This document shows positions 39,972-60,577 of a stretch of DNA of 64,000 nucleotides, in pieces (the first letter of the stretch is position 1; every line of letters starts with the position of its first letter). The translations under genes were made by a program, and so were the position numbers. The notes under the pieces were generated by a model. That model saw only the letters and a list, made by a program, of their open reading frames with translations, was not told where the DNA came from and ran no database searches. The DNA is from Geothrix oryzisoli. Its GTDB lineage: Bacteria; Acidobacteriota; Holophagae; Holophagales; Holophagaceae. The stretch is from NCBI RefSeq assembly GCF_022808865.1, contig NZ_JAKZLB010000004.1, positions 1 through 64,000 on the forward strand. Reading direction: 5' to 3'.

Positions 39972-41093
39972 TCAGGCCTTGGCGTGATCGCTCAGGCCCA
40001 GGAACTGTTTCTCGAAGGAGGACCAGTCCACGGCCCCCGTGGCCTGGGGTGCGTCCGCCGTCCGGAGGCGGGTGATCTCGTCCTGGTACCAGTCGATGAC
40101 GGGCTGCCCGATCTTGAGGGCCGGCAGTTCCCCGGCCAGGTCACTCGGGGTCATCAGGCAGACCCAGCCGCGGTCATAGGGGCTGTGGATCAGCTCGCCG
40201 GGATCCGTGAGCAGGCCCGCATTGTCGTGCTCGATGCGGCCGCTCAGCGGCGCGGCCACATGCACTTCGCCGGTGGCACCCTTCAGCGTGAACAGGGTCT
40301 CCCCCTGACGGAAGGTCTTGCCGCGCTCCGGGAGCACCACGCTCTTCACGGGGCCCAGCGCCTTGCGCACGAAATCGTCGATGCCCACGCGGATCTGGCC
40401 TTCCGGTTCGATGCGCACCCAGGCATGGCCCGTGGACAGGAAGGCGCCACCCGGCACGCAGAACTCGCTGGCGGACACCACCTCGGCCATCTCCGGCGCC
40501 ACCACCCGCACATTGGGCCGCCGCTGGGCCTCGATGCGGGCCTCCCGCTTGATGAGGAGCTTCTTCGCGAAGTCCGCCAGCTCGTCGGCGGTGAAGGGCT
40601 TCTGGACGTACTCGCAGGCGCCGTGCTGGAGGGTCTGCACGGCGGTATCGATGCTGCCATAGCCCGTGATCACCACCACATCGATGTCGGGCCGCAGGTG
40701 CTTGGCGGCCTTCACGACTTCGACGCCATCCATGTCCGGCATCTTGAGGTCCGTGAAGAGGAAGTCGTAGTCGTGCCGCTGGATCAGGCCCAGGGCCTCG
40801 GGACCGTGCTCGACCGTGTCCACGCTGAAGCCCTCCAGCACCAGGATCCGACGGAAGGAATCGAGCACCACGGCCTCGTCGTCCACCGCCAGGATGCGGG
40901 CTCTCGGATTCGGCACCTCCACCCGTTTGAGGCTCTTGGCCTCATGGGTGAAATCGAGGTGGATGGCCGTGTTCAGCACAGCTTCCCGGGCCTGCCGCTC
41001 GCGGGTCTCGCGGATGCGGCGGAGGCTGGTGCGCACCAGGAAGTCGATGCCCACGAAGGCGACGAACATGAAAAGGATCAACAGGGCGGTCAT
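39972..41093 (-). CDS. Membrane-anchored response regulator fused to a degenerate GcvH-like domain
   Basis: The 373-aa protein has an N-terminal transmembrane helix (about 2-20), a receiver domain (about 66-180) with acidic pair D71/D72, phosphoacceptor D115 in FTDLKMPD, T143 and K165, and a C-terminal GcvH-like domain (about 209-325: GHAWVRIEPEG, GPVKSVVLPERGKTFRQGE, APLSGRIE, SPYDRGWVCLMTPSD). Ungapped alignment with E. coli GcvH puts Thr274 where the lipoylated lysine should be, so it cannot carry lipoate there. It is 9 bp after the histidine kinase and is clearly its partner. No DNA-binding domain is visible, so the output is likely protein-protein or membrane-associated. Confidence 0.87.
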   Translation of the reverse strand: MTALLILFMFVAFVGIDFLVRTSLRRIRETRERQAREAVLNTAIHLDFTHEAKSLKRVEVPNPRARILAVDDEAVVLDSFRRILVLEGFSVDTVEHGPEALGLIQRHDYDFLFTDLKMPDMDGVEVVKAAKHLRPDIDVVVITGYGSIDTAVQTLQHGACEYVQKPFTADELADFAKKLLIKREARIEAQRRPNVRVVAPEMAEVVSASEFCVPGGAFLSTGHAWVRIEPEGQIRVGIDDFVRKALGPVKSVVLPERGKTFRQGETLFTLKGATGEVHVAAPLSGRIEHDNAGLLTDPGELIHSPYDRGWVCLMTPSDLAGELPALKIGQPVIDWYQDEITRLRTADAPQATGAVDWSSFEKQFLGLSDHAKA

Positions 41094-41102
41094 CGAAACC
41101 TC

Positions 41103-42641
41103 CTAGGTGGTGGTGGGAATGGGGGGCTGGCCGCTGCCGGCGCCCTCGCCGGATTCAGTGGACGTGGGAATGCGCAGGGTGAAGCAGGTGCCCTGTCCGG
41201 GCTCGCTGTGGACTTCCAGGGCGCCACCGTGGGCTTCCACGATGCCCCAGCTGACCGCGAGGCCCAGCCCGGTGCCATGGCTGCCCTTGGTGGTGTAGAA
41301 CGGCTCGAAGATGCGCGGCAGGTCTTCCGGCGGGATGCCCCGCCCGTTGTCCCGGACCAGCAGTTCCACCGAGCCTTCCGCGCCGGTCTGCGTGGTGACG
41401 CGGATGGTGCCGCCGCCGTCGCCGATGGCGTCCCCCGCGTTGAGCAGCAGGTTCACGGCCACCTGCTGGATCTGGTTGGCGTCCGCCTGCACGACGGGCA
41501 GCTCGGTGGCCAGGTCCAGTGAGAGATCCACCTGGTTGAGGGAGAGCTGGGTCATCACGACGGACACGGCCCGGCGCACCACCTCGTTCAGGTCCATGGG
41601 TTTCCGCGCGGGCGGTGTGGGCCGGGCGAAGTCCAGCAGGCCCCGGATAATCCCGCGGCACCGCACCGTCTCCCGCACGATCACATCCAGATCCTCCGCG
41701 GCCTCCGCATCGTCGGCGAGCCGCTTCCGCAGCAGGGAGGCGTAGCTCAGCACGCCGGTCAGCGGGTTGTTGATCTCATGGGCGACTCCGGCCGCCAGGC
41801 GACCGACCGAGGCGAGCTTGTCCGCCTGGGCCAGCTGGCGCTGGGTCTCGGCCAGCCGCTGGGTCATGGTGTTGAAGGCTCCGGCCAGTTCACTCAGCTC
41901 ATGGTTGCCGCTTACGGGGATGGTGGTACCGAGGTCCCCCTCGCCCACCCGCCGGGTGCCGGCCACCAGGGCCGCCACGGGCCGGACCACCAGCCGCCGG
42001 TTGAGCCACCACAGCATCAGGCTCCCCGCCAGGATGGCGGCGGCGGCGGAGAGCGTGATCAGCATCCGGCTGCGGCCGATCTCGCGATCCACTTCGGCGA
42101 GGGAGATGTTCACGTCCAGGACGCCCAGGAGGCTCTGTTTCGCGGCATGGGCGTGGCAGTCCGCCGTGGAGCAGGAAGGCTCGTTGGGGATGGGATTGAT
42201 GAGGCCCAGGACGCGGGTTCCGTCGGGGGCCCGGAAGGTCCGGGCCCGGGCCTGGATGCCCAGCCGTTCCAGGGGCCGGCCCTCCGCGTGGCAGGCGTAG
42301 CAGGCCTCGCCCCGGATATCGAGGCTGGAACCGATCTCCTCCTCCGCGGAGGAGAACATGACGCGCCCCTCCTTGTTGAAGACCCGGACCTTCCGGATGC
42401 CTTCGCCCTGGAGGCCGCCCACGGCGCGGATCTGCCGGTGCAGGTTCTCCCGGCGGTTCTCGAGCATGTCGAAGTGGGTGGCGCTCTTGATCGTCTCACT
42501 CAACTGGTCCGCACTGCGGGTCCGCTCCGCCAGGAGCTGGGCGGTGTGCGACCGGAGCAGGGCGAAGGCCATGCCCCCGATCACCACCGCCGTGGCGAAG
42601 CCGGCGCCGAGGATCAGACGAGTGCCGATGCGGGTCCGCAT
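41103..42641 (-). CDS. Sensor histidine kinase with periplasmic CXXCH motifs
   Basis: The 512-aa protein has TM1 (9-29), a periplasmic sensor domain (about 31-192), TM2 (193-213), HAMP, a HisKA domain with H288 in GVAHEINNPLTGVLSYA, and an HATPase domain (NAGDAIGDGG; DNGRGIPPEDL; GTGLGLAVSWGIVEAHGG). The sensor holds CYACH (Cys114, Cys117, His118), a standard c-type heme motif, and CSTADCH (157-163), a CX4CH variant. It should therefore bind heme covalently and sense redox state or a ligand, like the heme-bearing sensors of Geobacter. Heme binding is inferred from motif only. Paired with the GcvH-fused regulator. Confidence 0.9.
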   Translation of the reverse strand: MRTRIGTRLILGAGFATAVVIGGMAFALLRSHTAQLLAERTRSADQLSETIKSATHFDMLENRRENLHRQIRAVGGLQGEGIRKVRVFNKEGRVMFSSAEEEIGSSLDIRGEACYACHAEGRPLERLGIQARARTFRAPDGTRVLGLINPIPNEPSCSTADCHAHAAKQSLLGVLDVNISLAEVDREIGRSRMLITLSAAAAILAGSLMLWWLNRRLVVRPVAALVAGTRRVGEGDLGTTIPVSGNHELSELAGAFNTMTQRLAETQRQLAQADKLASVGRLAAGVAHEINNPLTGVLSYASLLRKRLADDAEAAEDLDVIVRETVRCRGIIRGLLDFARPTPPARKPMDLNEVVRRAVSVVMTQLSLNQVDLSLDLATELPVVQADANQIQQVAVNLLLNAGDAIGDGGGTIRVTTQTGAEGSVELLVRDNGRGIPPEDLPRIFEPFYTTKGSHGTGLGLAVSWGIVEAHGGALEVHSEPGQGTCFTLRIPTSTESGEGAGSGQPPIPTTT

Positions 42642-42884: not shown

Positions 42885-42918
42885 CGCGGCCACACCCCGT
42901 TCTGAAGGCAGACCCTAG
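42885..42918. repeat. Right arm of a 34-bp inverted repeat
   Basis: Reverse-complement partner of 42644-42677, 207 bp apart. It contains the stop codon of the hybB-like gene. Together the arms would let the 275-bp segment fold into one long stem or mark the ends of an inserted or invertible element. Confidence 0.8.
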
Positions 42919-44084
42919 GCTCCTATGGCCGGTTCCTTGGGACGCTCCGCCACCGGGCCTTCGGGGAAGACCGAGAAAGTGCGGACGGCGAAGGCGAAGA
43001 CCGCCATGCCGATGGCCACCAGGCCCAGGGACACGGTGATCTCCATGGCCGAGGGCAGGTAGCGCGTGCCGGAGGCCGCCTCCATGCCCGTGATGCTCAC
43101 GTTCAGGCGGTTCATGACGAACCCGAGCACCGCCAGGAAGGCGCTGCCCACCAGCCAGTCGGGGTTCGTGCGAAGGCGTCGGAACGACATCAGCACCACC
43201 GGCAGCACCACGCCGAGCGTGAACTCGAGGAGGAACATGCGCCCTTCATAGCTGAGGTTGAAGATCGTCCCGAACGCGTGGTTGCGGGCGATCCCCTGCA
43301 GCCGCATGAGGCCGTAGATGCCCAGCGCCACCACCATGCCCCGGGCCAGGGGTTCCAGGAGGTCCATCTCCAGGTGGCGGTGGAAGGCCCGCTTGCTGAG
43401 GTACGACTCCAGGACGATCATGCCGATGCCCGCGCCGATGGCCGAGATGTAGAAGTGGAGCGGCAGCATCGGGGAGTACCAGAGCGGATGCAGCTTGCTG
43501 GGGACGATGAGGTAGAGCGAGCCCAGCGACGACTGGTGCAGGGTCGAGAGGAGCACGCCGAGGATGACCAGGGGTGTGATGAGCTGATGGATGAGCTTGG
43601 CCGGTGTGTGGAAGCCGAAGTACTCGAGCACCACCGGGGCGAACTCCACAGCCAGCACCGTGGTGTAGAGCATCACGCACCAGGCCACCTCGAACATGAC
43701 CGAGTGCGTGTTCCAGTAGATGATGGCGTGCCAGATGCGCCAGGGCTGGCCCAGATCGAGCAGGAGCGCCACGATCACGAAGGCGTAGCCGAGGAAGCCC
43801 GTGAGGATCGTGGGGCGAACGATGGGCTCGAAGCGATGGAGGTTGAAGAGGTGCACCACGGCGGTGAGGGTGAAGGCGCCGGCGGCCAGGCCCACGCCGC
43901 AGAGGAGGTCGAAGCCGATCCAGAGGCCCCAGGGGAACTGGTCGCTCAGGTTGGTGACCGCCCCGAGGCCCTTGGTGTAGCGGATCACGGTGACTGCGCA
44001 GAAGGCGAGGAACAGGACCACGAAGACCGCTGTCCAGAAACCCGGCCGGAACCGGCGCGGCGCGAGCGTAGCGAGGGTGTTCAT
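42915..44084 (-). CDS. HybB/NrfD-family quinone-interacting membrane subunit
   Basis: The 389-aa protein has about ten transmembrane helices and the NrfD/PsrC/HybB family texture: TNLSDQFPWGLWIGFDLLCGVGLAAGAF, LGYAFVIVALLLDLGQPWRIWHAIIYWN-type blocks, HQSSLGSLYLIVPSKLHPLWYSPMLPLHF, and a late VMNRLNVSITG. HybB anchors hydrogenase-2 in E. coli and passes electrons to quinone. Its start overlaps the HybA-like gene (ATGA). No hydrogenase or molybdoenzyme subunit is adjacent, so the partner is unknown. Near-HybB similarity is stronger than to NrfD, judged by the LDLGQPWRIWH and SSLGSL segments. Confidence 0.9.
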   Translation of the reverse strand: MNTLATLAPRRFRPGFWTAVFVVLFLAFCAVTVIRYTKGLGAVTNLSDQFPWGLWIGFDLLCGVGLAAGAFTLTAVVHLFNLHRFEPIVRPTILTGFLGYAFVIVALLLDLGQPWRIWHAIIYWNTHSVMFEVAWCVMLYTTVLAVEFAPVVLEYFGFHTPAKLIHQLITPLVILGVLLSTLHQSSLGSLYLIVPSKLHPLWYSPMLPLHFYISAIGAGIGMIVLESYLSKRAFHRHLEMDLLEPLARGMVVALGIYGLMRLQGIARNHAFGTIFNLSYEGRMFLLEFTLGVVLPVVLMSFRRLRTNPDWLVGSAFLAVLGFVMNRLNVSITGMEAASGTRYLPSAMEITVSLGLVAIGMAVFAFAVRTFSVFPEGPVAERPKEPAIGA

Positions 44085-44854
44085 GACCGGTCCTCCCGTT
44101 CATTGCCTTGTCCGTTGCGGCCATGGCCGTTGGCCGTGGCCTTGGCCACCTCCTCACGCCGGGCGGTGATCCAGTGCACCCCATACAGGAAGACGGCCCA
44201 CACCGCCACGAAGTCGGGGATGTTCGACAGCACCTGCCAGGTCTTCATGGCCGGAGGCTCGCCCGGCAGGTTGGACTTCAGCCCCAGCTTCTCGAAGGGC
44301 ACGTTGGAGATCATCAGGACCGAGGTTCCACCGGCTTCCGTGAGTCCGTAGATGTGGTCCACGTAGGCCCCGGGCTTCTGCCGGATGCGGGTGCGGGCCT
44401 CCCAGATCAGATCCTCCTTCTTGCCGAAGATCGTGGCCTCCGCCGGGCAGGCCGCGGCGCAGGCGGTGGGCTGCCCCTCCTTGATGCGGCCCGCGCACAT
44501 GATGCACTTGCCGACCACGGGCACCGGCCGGTCCCATTGGTATTTCGGGATCTCGAAGGGACAGGCCATCATGCAGTAGCGGCAGCCCATGCAGCGCTCG
44601 GCATCGTAGACCACCGGCCCTTCCGGCGTCTTCTTCAGCGCGCCCACGGGGCAGACGGAGGCGCAGGTGGGCACTTCGCAGTGCATGCACAGGCGCCGCA
44701 CGTTGAGGCCCTCCCGCTCCTGGACCGTGGTCCAGGTATAGGCCGTCAACACCTCCTCTACCTTGCCCGGTAGCTTGTTCTGCTCCTTGCACGCGGAGCT
44801 GCAGGCGCCGCAACCGATGCAGCGCGTAGCGTCGAAGAGAAGGCCCATGCCCAT
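44081..44854 (-). CDS. HybA-like four-cluster ferredoxin subunit
   Basis: The 257-aa protein has four cysteine groups, CIGCGACSSAC, CMHCEVPTCASVC, CMGCRYCMMAC and CIMCAGRIKEGQPTACAAAC, for four Fe-S clusters. A C-terminal transmembrane helix (FVAVWAVFLYGVHWI, about 217-232) anchors it, as in HybA. Unlike E. coli HybA, there is no twin-arginine signal: the protein starts MGMGLLFDATRC. It is thus cytoplasmic or exported with a partner. It heads the redox-subunit/regulator operon. Confidence 0.9.
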   Translation of the reverse strand: MGMGLLFDATRCIGCGACSSACKEQNKLPGKVEEVLTAYTWTTVQEREGLNVRRLCMHCEVPTCASVCPVGALKKTPEGPVVYDAERCMGCRYCMMACPFEIPKYQWDRPVPVVGKCIMCAGRIKEGQPTACAAACPAEATIFGKKEDLIWEARTRIRQKPGAYVDHIYGLTEAGGTSVLMISNVPFEKLGLKSNLPGEPPAMKTWQVLSNIPDFVAVWAVFLYGVHWITARREEVAKATANGHGRNGQGNEREDRS

Positions 44855-45166
44855 GGGTTCTCCTGCCTTTTCAAGTTTCCGGGAGGTATTCCCGGAGGTT
44901 CGAAAGAAGCATCCATTCGGGCGAAACCATAGTCAACCCCTTGGTATGAATTAAAAATGACGATGTTGTCTCATATAAGAAAAAAGCTTCGCTTTCGCGA
45001 GCCACTTCCCAGGAACTGCATGGGTTAGGCCATCCCGTTCTTCGCGCCATCCCCCGTTGCAGGGGCGGGTTTTCCGTTCCCCGGCTTCAGCCCCCCTACT
45101 GGTGGTTTTTTGTCACTTTGCAACACCCTCTAAGGACATTCAGGTCGCCTTACCCTCACGGCCATG

Positions 45167-45202
45167 CCGAGAAACGCCCTGCGACCGCGGGGCGTTTCTC
45201 GG
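45167..45202. repeat. Perfect 13-bp inverted repeat, terminator-like
   Basis: CCGAGAAACGCCC (45167-45179) pairs with GGGCGTTTCTCGG (45190-45202) around a 10-base loop. It resembles the groEL terminator 140 bp away in layout and is followed by a CGGCTGA...TTAATACATGTC string also found at the groEL 3' end. No T-tract. Confidence 0.6.
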
Positions 45203-45307
45203 ACAACTGCCGGCTGATGGCTCTTAATACATGTCGCGACGATGCGGGGCCCCCTGGGAGCGAATCACGCCCATCCGAGCCCCCCCAAACTCCTAGCCAG
45301 TGCATCC

Positions 45308-45337
45308 AAAAAAAGGCCCCGCAACCGCGGGGCCTTT
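45308..45337 (-). terminator. groEL rho-independent terminator
   Basis: AAAGGCCCCGC (45312-45322) and GCGGGGCCTTT (45327-45337) form a perfect 11-bp stem with an AACC loop. Read on the minus strand it is followed by a run of seven T, 24 bp after the groEL stop. Confidence 0.88.
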
Positions 45338-45360
45338 CCACGAACCGCAGTCGCGGCTGA

Positions 45361-60073: not shown

Positions 60074-60089
60074 CGTGATTGAGGTCACG
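60074..60089 (+). promoter_or_regulatory. CRP/FNR-family-like operator
   Basis: CGTGA-TTGAGG-TCACG is a 5-6-5 palindrome with the spacing of CRP/FNR family sites (TGTGA-N6-TCACA). It is 147 bp upstream of the tetraheme cytochrome start at 60221, in the gap between it and the PstS-like gene. A single site seen by eye. Confidence 0.45.
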
Positions 60090-60220
60090 CGTCCGAGGAA
60101 AAATCGACCCAGGGTCTGGATCCTTGGCGCCGCCCAAGGCACGCTGCTCGGACAAGGCCAACGCCTCTTTGTAGACTGCACTGGAATCCGGCGGCCCACC
60201 GCCGGCTCATGGGAATCGTC

Positions 60221-60577
60221 ATGACACTCGCCCGACCTATCGCCCACCTGCTCTGCGCTCTGCTCCTGGCGGCTCCGGCCCTGGCCCAGGACGCGGGCGG
60301 GCGCAAGCTGCCCGACCATCACGTCAAGGCCGGCGTCCACTGCTTCGACTGCCACCACGAGGAGAAGCCCACCAAGAAGGCGGTGGCCTCCGATTCCTGC
60401 ATGACCTGCCACGGCGACTATCCCGCCATGAAGGCCCTGACGAAGGACGTGAAGCCCAATCCACACGACTCCCACCTGGGTGAGATCCCCTGCACGGAAT
60501 GCCACCGGCAGCACCAGGCGCTGAAGGTGAAGTGCCTGGAATGCCACGAGGGCAAGTTCAAGTTCAACATCCGGTAG
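60221..60577 (+). CDS. Small periplasmic tetraheme cytochrome c
   Basis: The 118-aa protein has a signal peptide (MTLARPIAHLLCALLLAAPALAQ) and four CXXCH sites in about 60 residues: CFDCH, CMTCH, CTECH and CLECH. Additional His residues (DHHVKAGVH, HHEE, HDSHLG, HRQH) fit distal ligands. This is the Shewanella STC-like/cytochrome c3 tetraheme type, which shuttles electrons across the periplasm in metal-reducing bacteria. ATG 60209 is an alternative start. Partner is not adjacent. Confidence 0.9.
   Translation: MTLARPIAHLLCALLLAAPALAQDAGGRKLPDHHVKAGVHCFDCHHEEKPTKKAVASDSCMTCHGDYPAMKALTKDVKPNPHDSHLGEIPCTECHRQHQALKVKCLECHEGKFKFNIR

Follow-up and report, generated by a model that had tools for sequence, protein, structure and literature searches.

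Genes and domains at the locus

The window analysed here is a stretch of 64,000 nt of Geothrix oryzisoli DNA (contig NZ_JAKZLB010000004.1), in which an ORF at 39972..41093 (minus strand, stop codon included) encodes a 373 aa protein composed of a membrane anchor, a receiver and a GcvH-like domain, as delineated from the ORF, Pfam and a structural model. Proteins that join a receiver to this H-domain are referred to below as RR-GcvH, or TM-RR-GcvH when anchored. Pfam gives only two domains, Response_reg at residues 67–174 (E 1.8e-27) and GCV_H at residues 222–320 (E 4.8e-15), and thus no DNA-binding output domain. The receiver (40572..40895, minus strand) was delimited by Pfam, by residue invariance and by its match to 3crn (Z 22.1). 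A reading made from the sequence only had described this receiver as intact, and D71, D72, D115, T143 and K165 are all encoded in the DNA; D72, D115, T143 and K165 are invariant among 55 homologues and D71 is at least 90 % conserved. With its DD, D, T and K residues the receiver is that of a response regulator, with the phospho-acceptor D115 codon at 40749–40751 (minus strand).

Residues 2–20 (41034..41090, minus strand) are the most hydrophobic part of the protein by hydropathy, are followed by a basic stretch, and are also delimited as an anchor by profile search; the AlphaFold2 model places a helix at residues 2–45. The prediction thus agrees with the earlier suggestion that an N-terminal helix holds the regulator at the membrane. 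Under the positive-inside rule a basic stretch after a membrane helix lies on the cytoplasmic side, so the receiver and the H-domain are both predicted to be cytoplasmic.

The gene is the last of four on one strand, in the order FeS protein, NrfD, kinase, RR-GcvH, an order kept across Holophagaceae. The FeS protein (44081..44854, minus strand) is closest to the NCBIfam model HmcB (E 2e-74; 250.8 bits, under the cut-off of 420), and no Tat signal was seen in it. The NrfD family protein (42915..44084, minus strand) is closest to HmcC (E 1e-102; 343.8 bits, under the cut-off of 550). By these profile scores the two are relatives of HmcB and HmcC and not members of those families. The kinase ORF (41103..42641, minus strand) adjoins that of the RR-GcvH with 9 bases between, and encodes a sensor histidine kinase with two TM helices and a HAMP-HisKA-HATPase arrangement. 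Its periplasmic part, between the TM helices, matches no Pfam model and carries two heme motifs, CYACH (42288–42302) and CSTADCH (42153–42173), both on the minus strand. The corresponding CxxCH and CX3-5CH motifs occur in 73/73 kinase homologues whose sensor part aligned, and the protein is predicted to be a c-type heme sensor kinase. The Geothrix operon contains no other regulator gene, and no multiheme cytochrome is encoded in the genes adjacent to it.

Several further features of this genome were recorded. Approximately 500 bases without a clear gene separate groEL from the FeS gene (44855–45360), with a terminator-like GC-rich hairpin and T run just past groEL; a search for riboswitches and other known RNAs ahead of the operon gave no Rfam match at gathering score in the window, and the weak matches in the upstream region are terminator-like. 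A 164-codon frame at 60083–60574 (plus strand) has four CxxCH motifs, the most in the window, and may encode a multiheme cytochrome. A second FeS-NrfD pair is located elsewhere in the genome (G000:C4:495399-496508; L179:7337-8782, FeS L179:8536-9342; 47 % identity), and no GcvH-like gene was recognised near it.

The H-domain and its lipoyl site

The AlphaFold2 model was built from 55 sequences and has a mean pLDDT of 82.9; its pTM is 0.54, so that the model does not fix the relative placement of the domains. Matches to the whole model are mostly receivers, with H-proteins among the top ones at similar Z. Superposition of the H-domain on H-proteins, the structural check that had been proposed, returned a complete H-protein fold at residues 211–345 (40059..40463, minus strand), with 131/131 residues aligned to 1htp (Z 19.8, rmsd 1.2) and 128/128 to 3a7l, the E. 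coli apo-H-protein (Z 19.8, rmsd 1.1). The gapless alignment to E. coli GcvH that had been reported was recovered, HAW...RGW spanning 88 residues in each protein, 29 of them identical. The NCBIfam model PRK01202 scores the H-domain at 56.7 bits, under its cut-off of 117.

The column of the lysine on which H-proteins normally carry lipoate for glycine breakdown is occupied by Thr274 (codon ACC, 40272..40274, minus strand), as the sequence-only reading had it, and alignments with H-protein chains of the PDB agree. In the model Thr274 lies in the hairpin turn between strands 266–272 and 275–280, the place of the lipoyl-lysine in H-proteins, and the ESxK lipoyl motif expected at this turn is absent from the 373 aa protein. 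Lys271, also pointed out before, is three residues before Thr274 and opposite the Glu of ESVK. Sequencing error was ruled out as the source of the missing lysine, as congeners at 65–94 % identity lack it as well. The same column was compared among homologues: 93 of the 97 non-canonical H-domains have no lysine there (one of the four that do is L070, with lysine at the canonical column), and ESxK is found in 0/97 of them and in 5/5 canonical GcvH compared. Loss of the lipoyl site is, judging from these alignments, old and common to the whole family of non-canonical H-proteins, and is not peculiar to this gene.

The close homologues are from Geothrix and other Holophagaceae, with further ones in Spirochaetia, Gammaproteobacteria and Nitrospirota. 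The family was seen mainly in Acidobacteriota and Nitrospirota; in the Proteobacteria and Spirochaetota samples clear members were found only in G322 and G684, and in G321. This genome encodes two proteins that match GcvH, the one under study and a separate canonical GcvH with ESVK. The gene lipA adjoins the RR-GcvH gene in the nearer Geothrix-type loci having enough flank, and is not adjacent at L070, L071, L073, L075 and L077 or in other phyla. Its proximity had been taken to make the loss notable; this is not supported, as the synteny fades and a canonical GcvH is present; the loss is, moreover, family-wide. As a functional partner, lipA is likewise unsupported, the synteny being lost in distant loci.

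Gene neighbourhoods and the origin of the receiver fusions

A search of 297 Acidobacteriota genomes for GcvH-like frames returned many of approximately 220–310 residues. In 52 Acidobacteriota genomes, chosen only for having a non-canonical GcvH match, an NrfD gene starts within 7 kb of 48 of the 71 non-canonical GcvH loci, where a rough estimate from about 1.6 NrfD per approximately 3.7 Mb genome gives a chance expectation of about 0.6 %. For the remaining 23 loci no NrfD gene lies within 7 kb; some of these are at contig ends, and in others, for example L148, L152 and L153, the GcvH-like gene stands only beside a kinase and a sigma-54 regulator. The NrfD-linked loci usually also encode an HmcB-like FeS protein, and a class III cytochrome c is frequent among them.

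Many members of the family have no receiver. Their genes directly adjoin FeS/NrfD genes, in up to three copies (L154, L156, L181, L182, L185), often with cytochromes of 3–5 hemes, of class III or c7 type, nearby; a heme kinase and a sigma-54 (NtrC-type) regulator are often beside them. In some of these proteins the anchor is replaced at the N-terminus by CxWM..GvVs.k.C....CxxC, possibly a metal site (L145, L148, L146:1433-2287, L160, L185:9234-10085). Soluble and TM forms of RR-GcvH occur together with cytochrome, FeS, NrfD and heme kinase genes in spirochaetial (L076), gammaproteobacterial (L177/L178) and acidobacterial (L144) loci. The FeS proteins are of two kinds: those of the first bear a Tat-like signal and usually have a cytochrome gene close by, those of the second have neither, and the FeS protein of the window belongs to the second. 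The pattern used to recognise Tat signals is a simple one, and its positives at L141, L146 and L186 are probably false. A FeS protein with a Tat-like signal should be periplasmic, so in the cytochrome-bearing variants NrfD alone would be within reach of the H-domain.

In Nitrospirota a gene for a receiver joined to a thioredoxin-like [2Fe-2S] NuoE/HndA domain lies close by in nearly all RR-GcvH loci examined, usually as the next gene (L084:6944-7891, L094:6798-7736 and other Nitrospirota loci). The complete fusions carry the CxxxxC and CxxxC ligand pairs; the alignment piece of L083 is uninformative and the gene at L106 is cut at the stretch end. At L084 and L094, NuoF-like and NuoG/formate-dehydrogenase-like genes follow. 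On the evidence of these sequences, the direct joining of a receiver to a subunit of an electron-transfer complex is an independent parallel to RR-GcvH.

Many of the receiver-less family members have the same membrane anchor. When a profile of the anchor from receiver-bearing proteins was run against 5,694 ORFs, its ten best other hits were receiver-less GcvH-like proteins, ranking above all unrelated ORFs; by this profile evidence the two anchors are homologous. In a tree of H-domains (131 columns, 84 rows, many forks weak) TM-RR-GcvH form one group (90/84), which includes a truncated copy (L078) and lies near the TM receiver-less proteins. Since proteins with this anchor but no receiver exist, the receiver probably joined an existing membrane H-like protein, being inserted later between anchor and H-domain, and not the reverse; the tree leaves this direction unproven. 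In the tree, soluble RR-GcvH (from Nitrospirota and from L076, L144 and L177/L178) stand apart and appear to be separate fusion events, such that receiver fusions would have arisen more than once.

Possible function and relation to known systems

We propose, at roughly even chances of being correct, that RR-GcvH is a membrane-anchored, lipoate-free H-fold that serves as a receiver-controlled regulatory accessory of a quinone-linked FeS-NrfD module. The di-heme sensor kinase would read the periplasmic redox state and phosphorylate D115; the receiver, placed between anchor and H-domain, would then alter docking of the H-domain, either to the NrfD/FeS pair at its cytoplasmic face or to the soluble electron partner of that pair, and the changed docking may adjust electron flow without a transcription step. 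This suggests that respiration could be switched directly by phosphorylation. The proposal draws support from the conserved Holophagaceae operon, from the excess of acidobacterial loci near NrfD over expectation, from the receiver-less genes directly adjoining FeS/NrfD, and from the loci shared by soluble and TM forms. Anchor homology together with the grouping of TM-RR-GcvH near TM receiver-less proteins, the receiver-NuoE genes of Nitrospirota, the heme motifs in every aligned kinase and the lack of a DNA-binding domain point the same way. The 23 loci distant from NrfD count against it, as do the cytochrome-bearing variants in which only NrfD would be reachable, and the apparently repeated origin of receiver fusions, with a tree of few columns. 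The sequence-only reading had the domain recruited as a binding or scaffold module; its premise stands, and such a role would be sensible for an H-protein domain that has no lipoyl site.

The strongest alternative is that RR-GcvH is a signalling adaptor, whose H-domain would pass the kinase signal to another regulator, such as a sigma-54 activator, and never touch the module. Response regulators that lack a DNA-binding domain can work in this way, and a heme kinase and NtrC-type regulator beside many GcvH-like genes, a few of them without NrfD nearby, would fit. Gene neighbourhood alone cannot choose between accessory and adaptor, as it does not tell a subunit of a complex from a signalling protein sharing its operon. 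However, receiver-less GcvH-like proteins are also encoded close beside genes for FeS proteins, NrfD and cytochromes, no other regulator gene is present in the Geothrix operon, and Nitrospirota fuse receivers to NuoE itself; we consider the adaptor somewhat unlikely.

The other rivals concern the H-domain itself. It might mimic GcvH and compete for lipoate enzymes or for the P-, T- or L-protein, giving the kinase control over glycine cleavage or lipoylation. The complete fold, the neighbouring lipA and the canonical GcvH encoded elsewhere would all suit such a mimic, yet distant homologues have no lipA adjacency and reading of the loci, as opposed to a profile search, recognised no glycine-cleavage genes next to family members, which makes it improbable. 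Continued lipoylation, on Lys271 or another lysine, is very improbable: despite the nearness of Lys271 and the column lysine of L070, the column lysine is rare and ESxK absent in the family, and Lys271, rejected as a site, lies in the model on strand 266–272 before the turn and shows no conservation beyond the Geothrix group. There is slighter chance still that the domain is a decaying remnant behind an anchored receiver that alone matters; the cofactor site is indeed lost, but W225, G237, P282, N291 and W310 are invariant in the 55 sequences compared, which come from four phyla, confidence in the predicted fold is high, and receiver-less versions have been retained.

If the accessory proposal is true, the H-protein fold has a second life without lipoate, response regulators have a new output domain, and a redox-sensing two-component system is linked directly and post-translationally to a respiratory module. 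Many genes of Acidobacteriota and Nitrospirota that are probably annotated as 'glycine cleavage system protein H' would then gain a function, and that annotation would call for caution. Geothrix strains are cultured, and the idea is therefore testable. More tentatively, and with the balance of probability somewhat against it, widespread FeS-NrfD(-cytochrome c) complexes may use cofactor-free H-folds as subunits, with receivers built into H-like and NuoE subunits in several lineages, through which a heme-sensing kinase would directly set electron flow by phosphorylating the complex.

Compared with known systems, RR-GcvH shares with GcvH (PF01597) the whole fold, a gapless alignment and the W and G/P/N framework residues, and differs in having no lipoyl lysine or ESxK, in being anchored and receiver-fused, and in its gene standing beside NrfD/FeS genes. 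The combination of Response_reg and GCV_H is, we presume, very likely already listed in public domain databases. No account of RR-GcvH, of GcvH-like proteins with NrfD or of receiver-NuoE was found in the open-access literature, to which the search was confined. LbpA of the Hdr-like sulfur pathway likewise resembles GcvH and has been recruited to serve a redox system instead of glycine cleavage, but LbpA proteins keep a strictly conserved lipoyl lysine (PMC6067878), which is absent in RR-GcvH. FeS-NrfD-multiheme modules are already known, and the parts of those accounts that were seen make no mention of a GcvH-like partner (PMC4215793, PMC9386147). The nearest complexes are of the Hmc/Nhc type (HmcB, HmcC; also Hyb), whose HmcB-/HmcC-like proteins recur here, in some loci with a class III cytochrome c, whereas the scores are under the NCBIfam cut-offs and the Geothrix version has neither a Tat signal nor an adjacent cytochrome; we know of no GcvH-like partner described for Hmc complexes. 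Like response regulators with protein-interaction outputs, RR-GcvH has an intact receiver and a non-DNA-binding output; the difference is that this output is an H-protein fold, a role for which the open-access literature searched gave no description. The receiver-NuoE/HndA [2Fe-2S] proteins of Nitrospirota similarly join a receiver to an electron-transfer protein, but their cluster ligands are kept, whereas in RR-GcvH the cofactor site of the H-domain has been lost.
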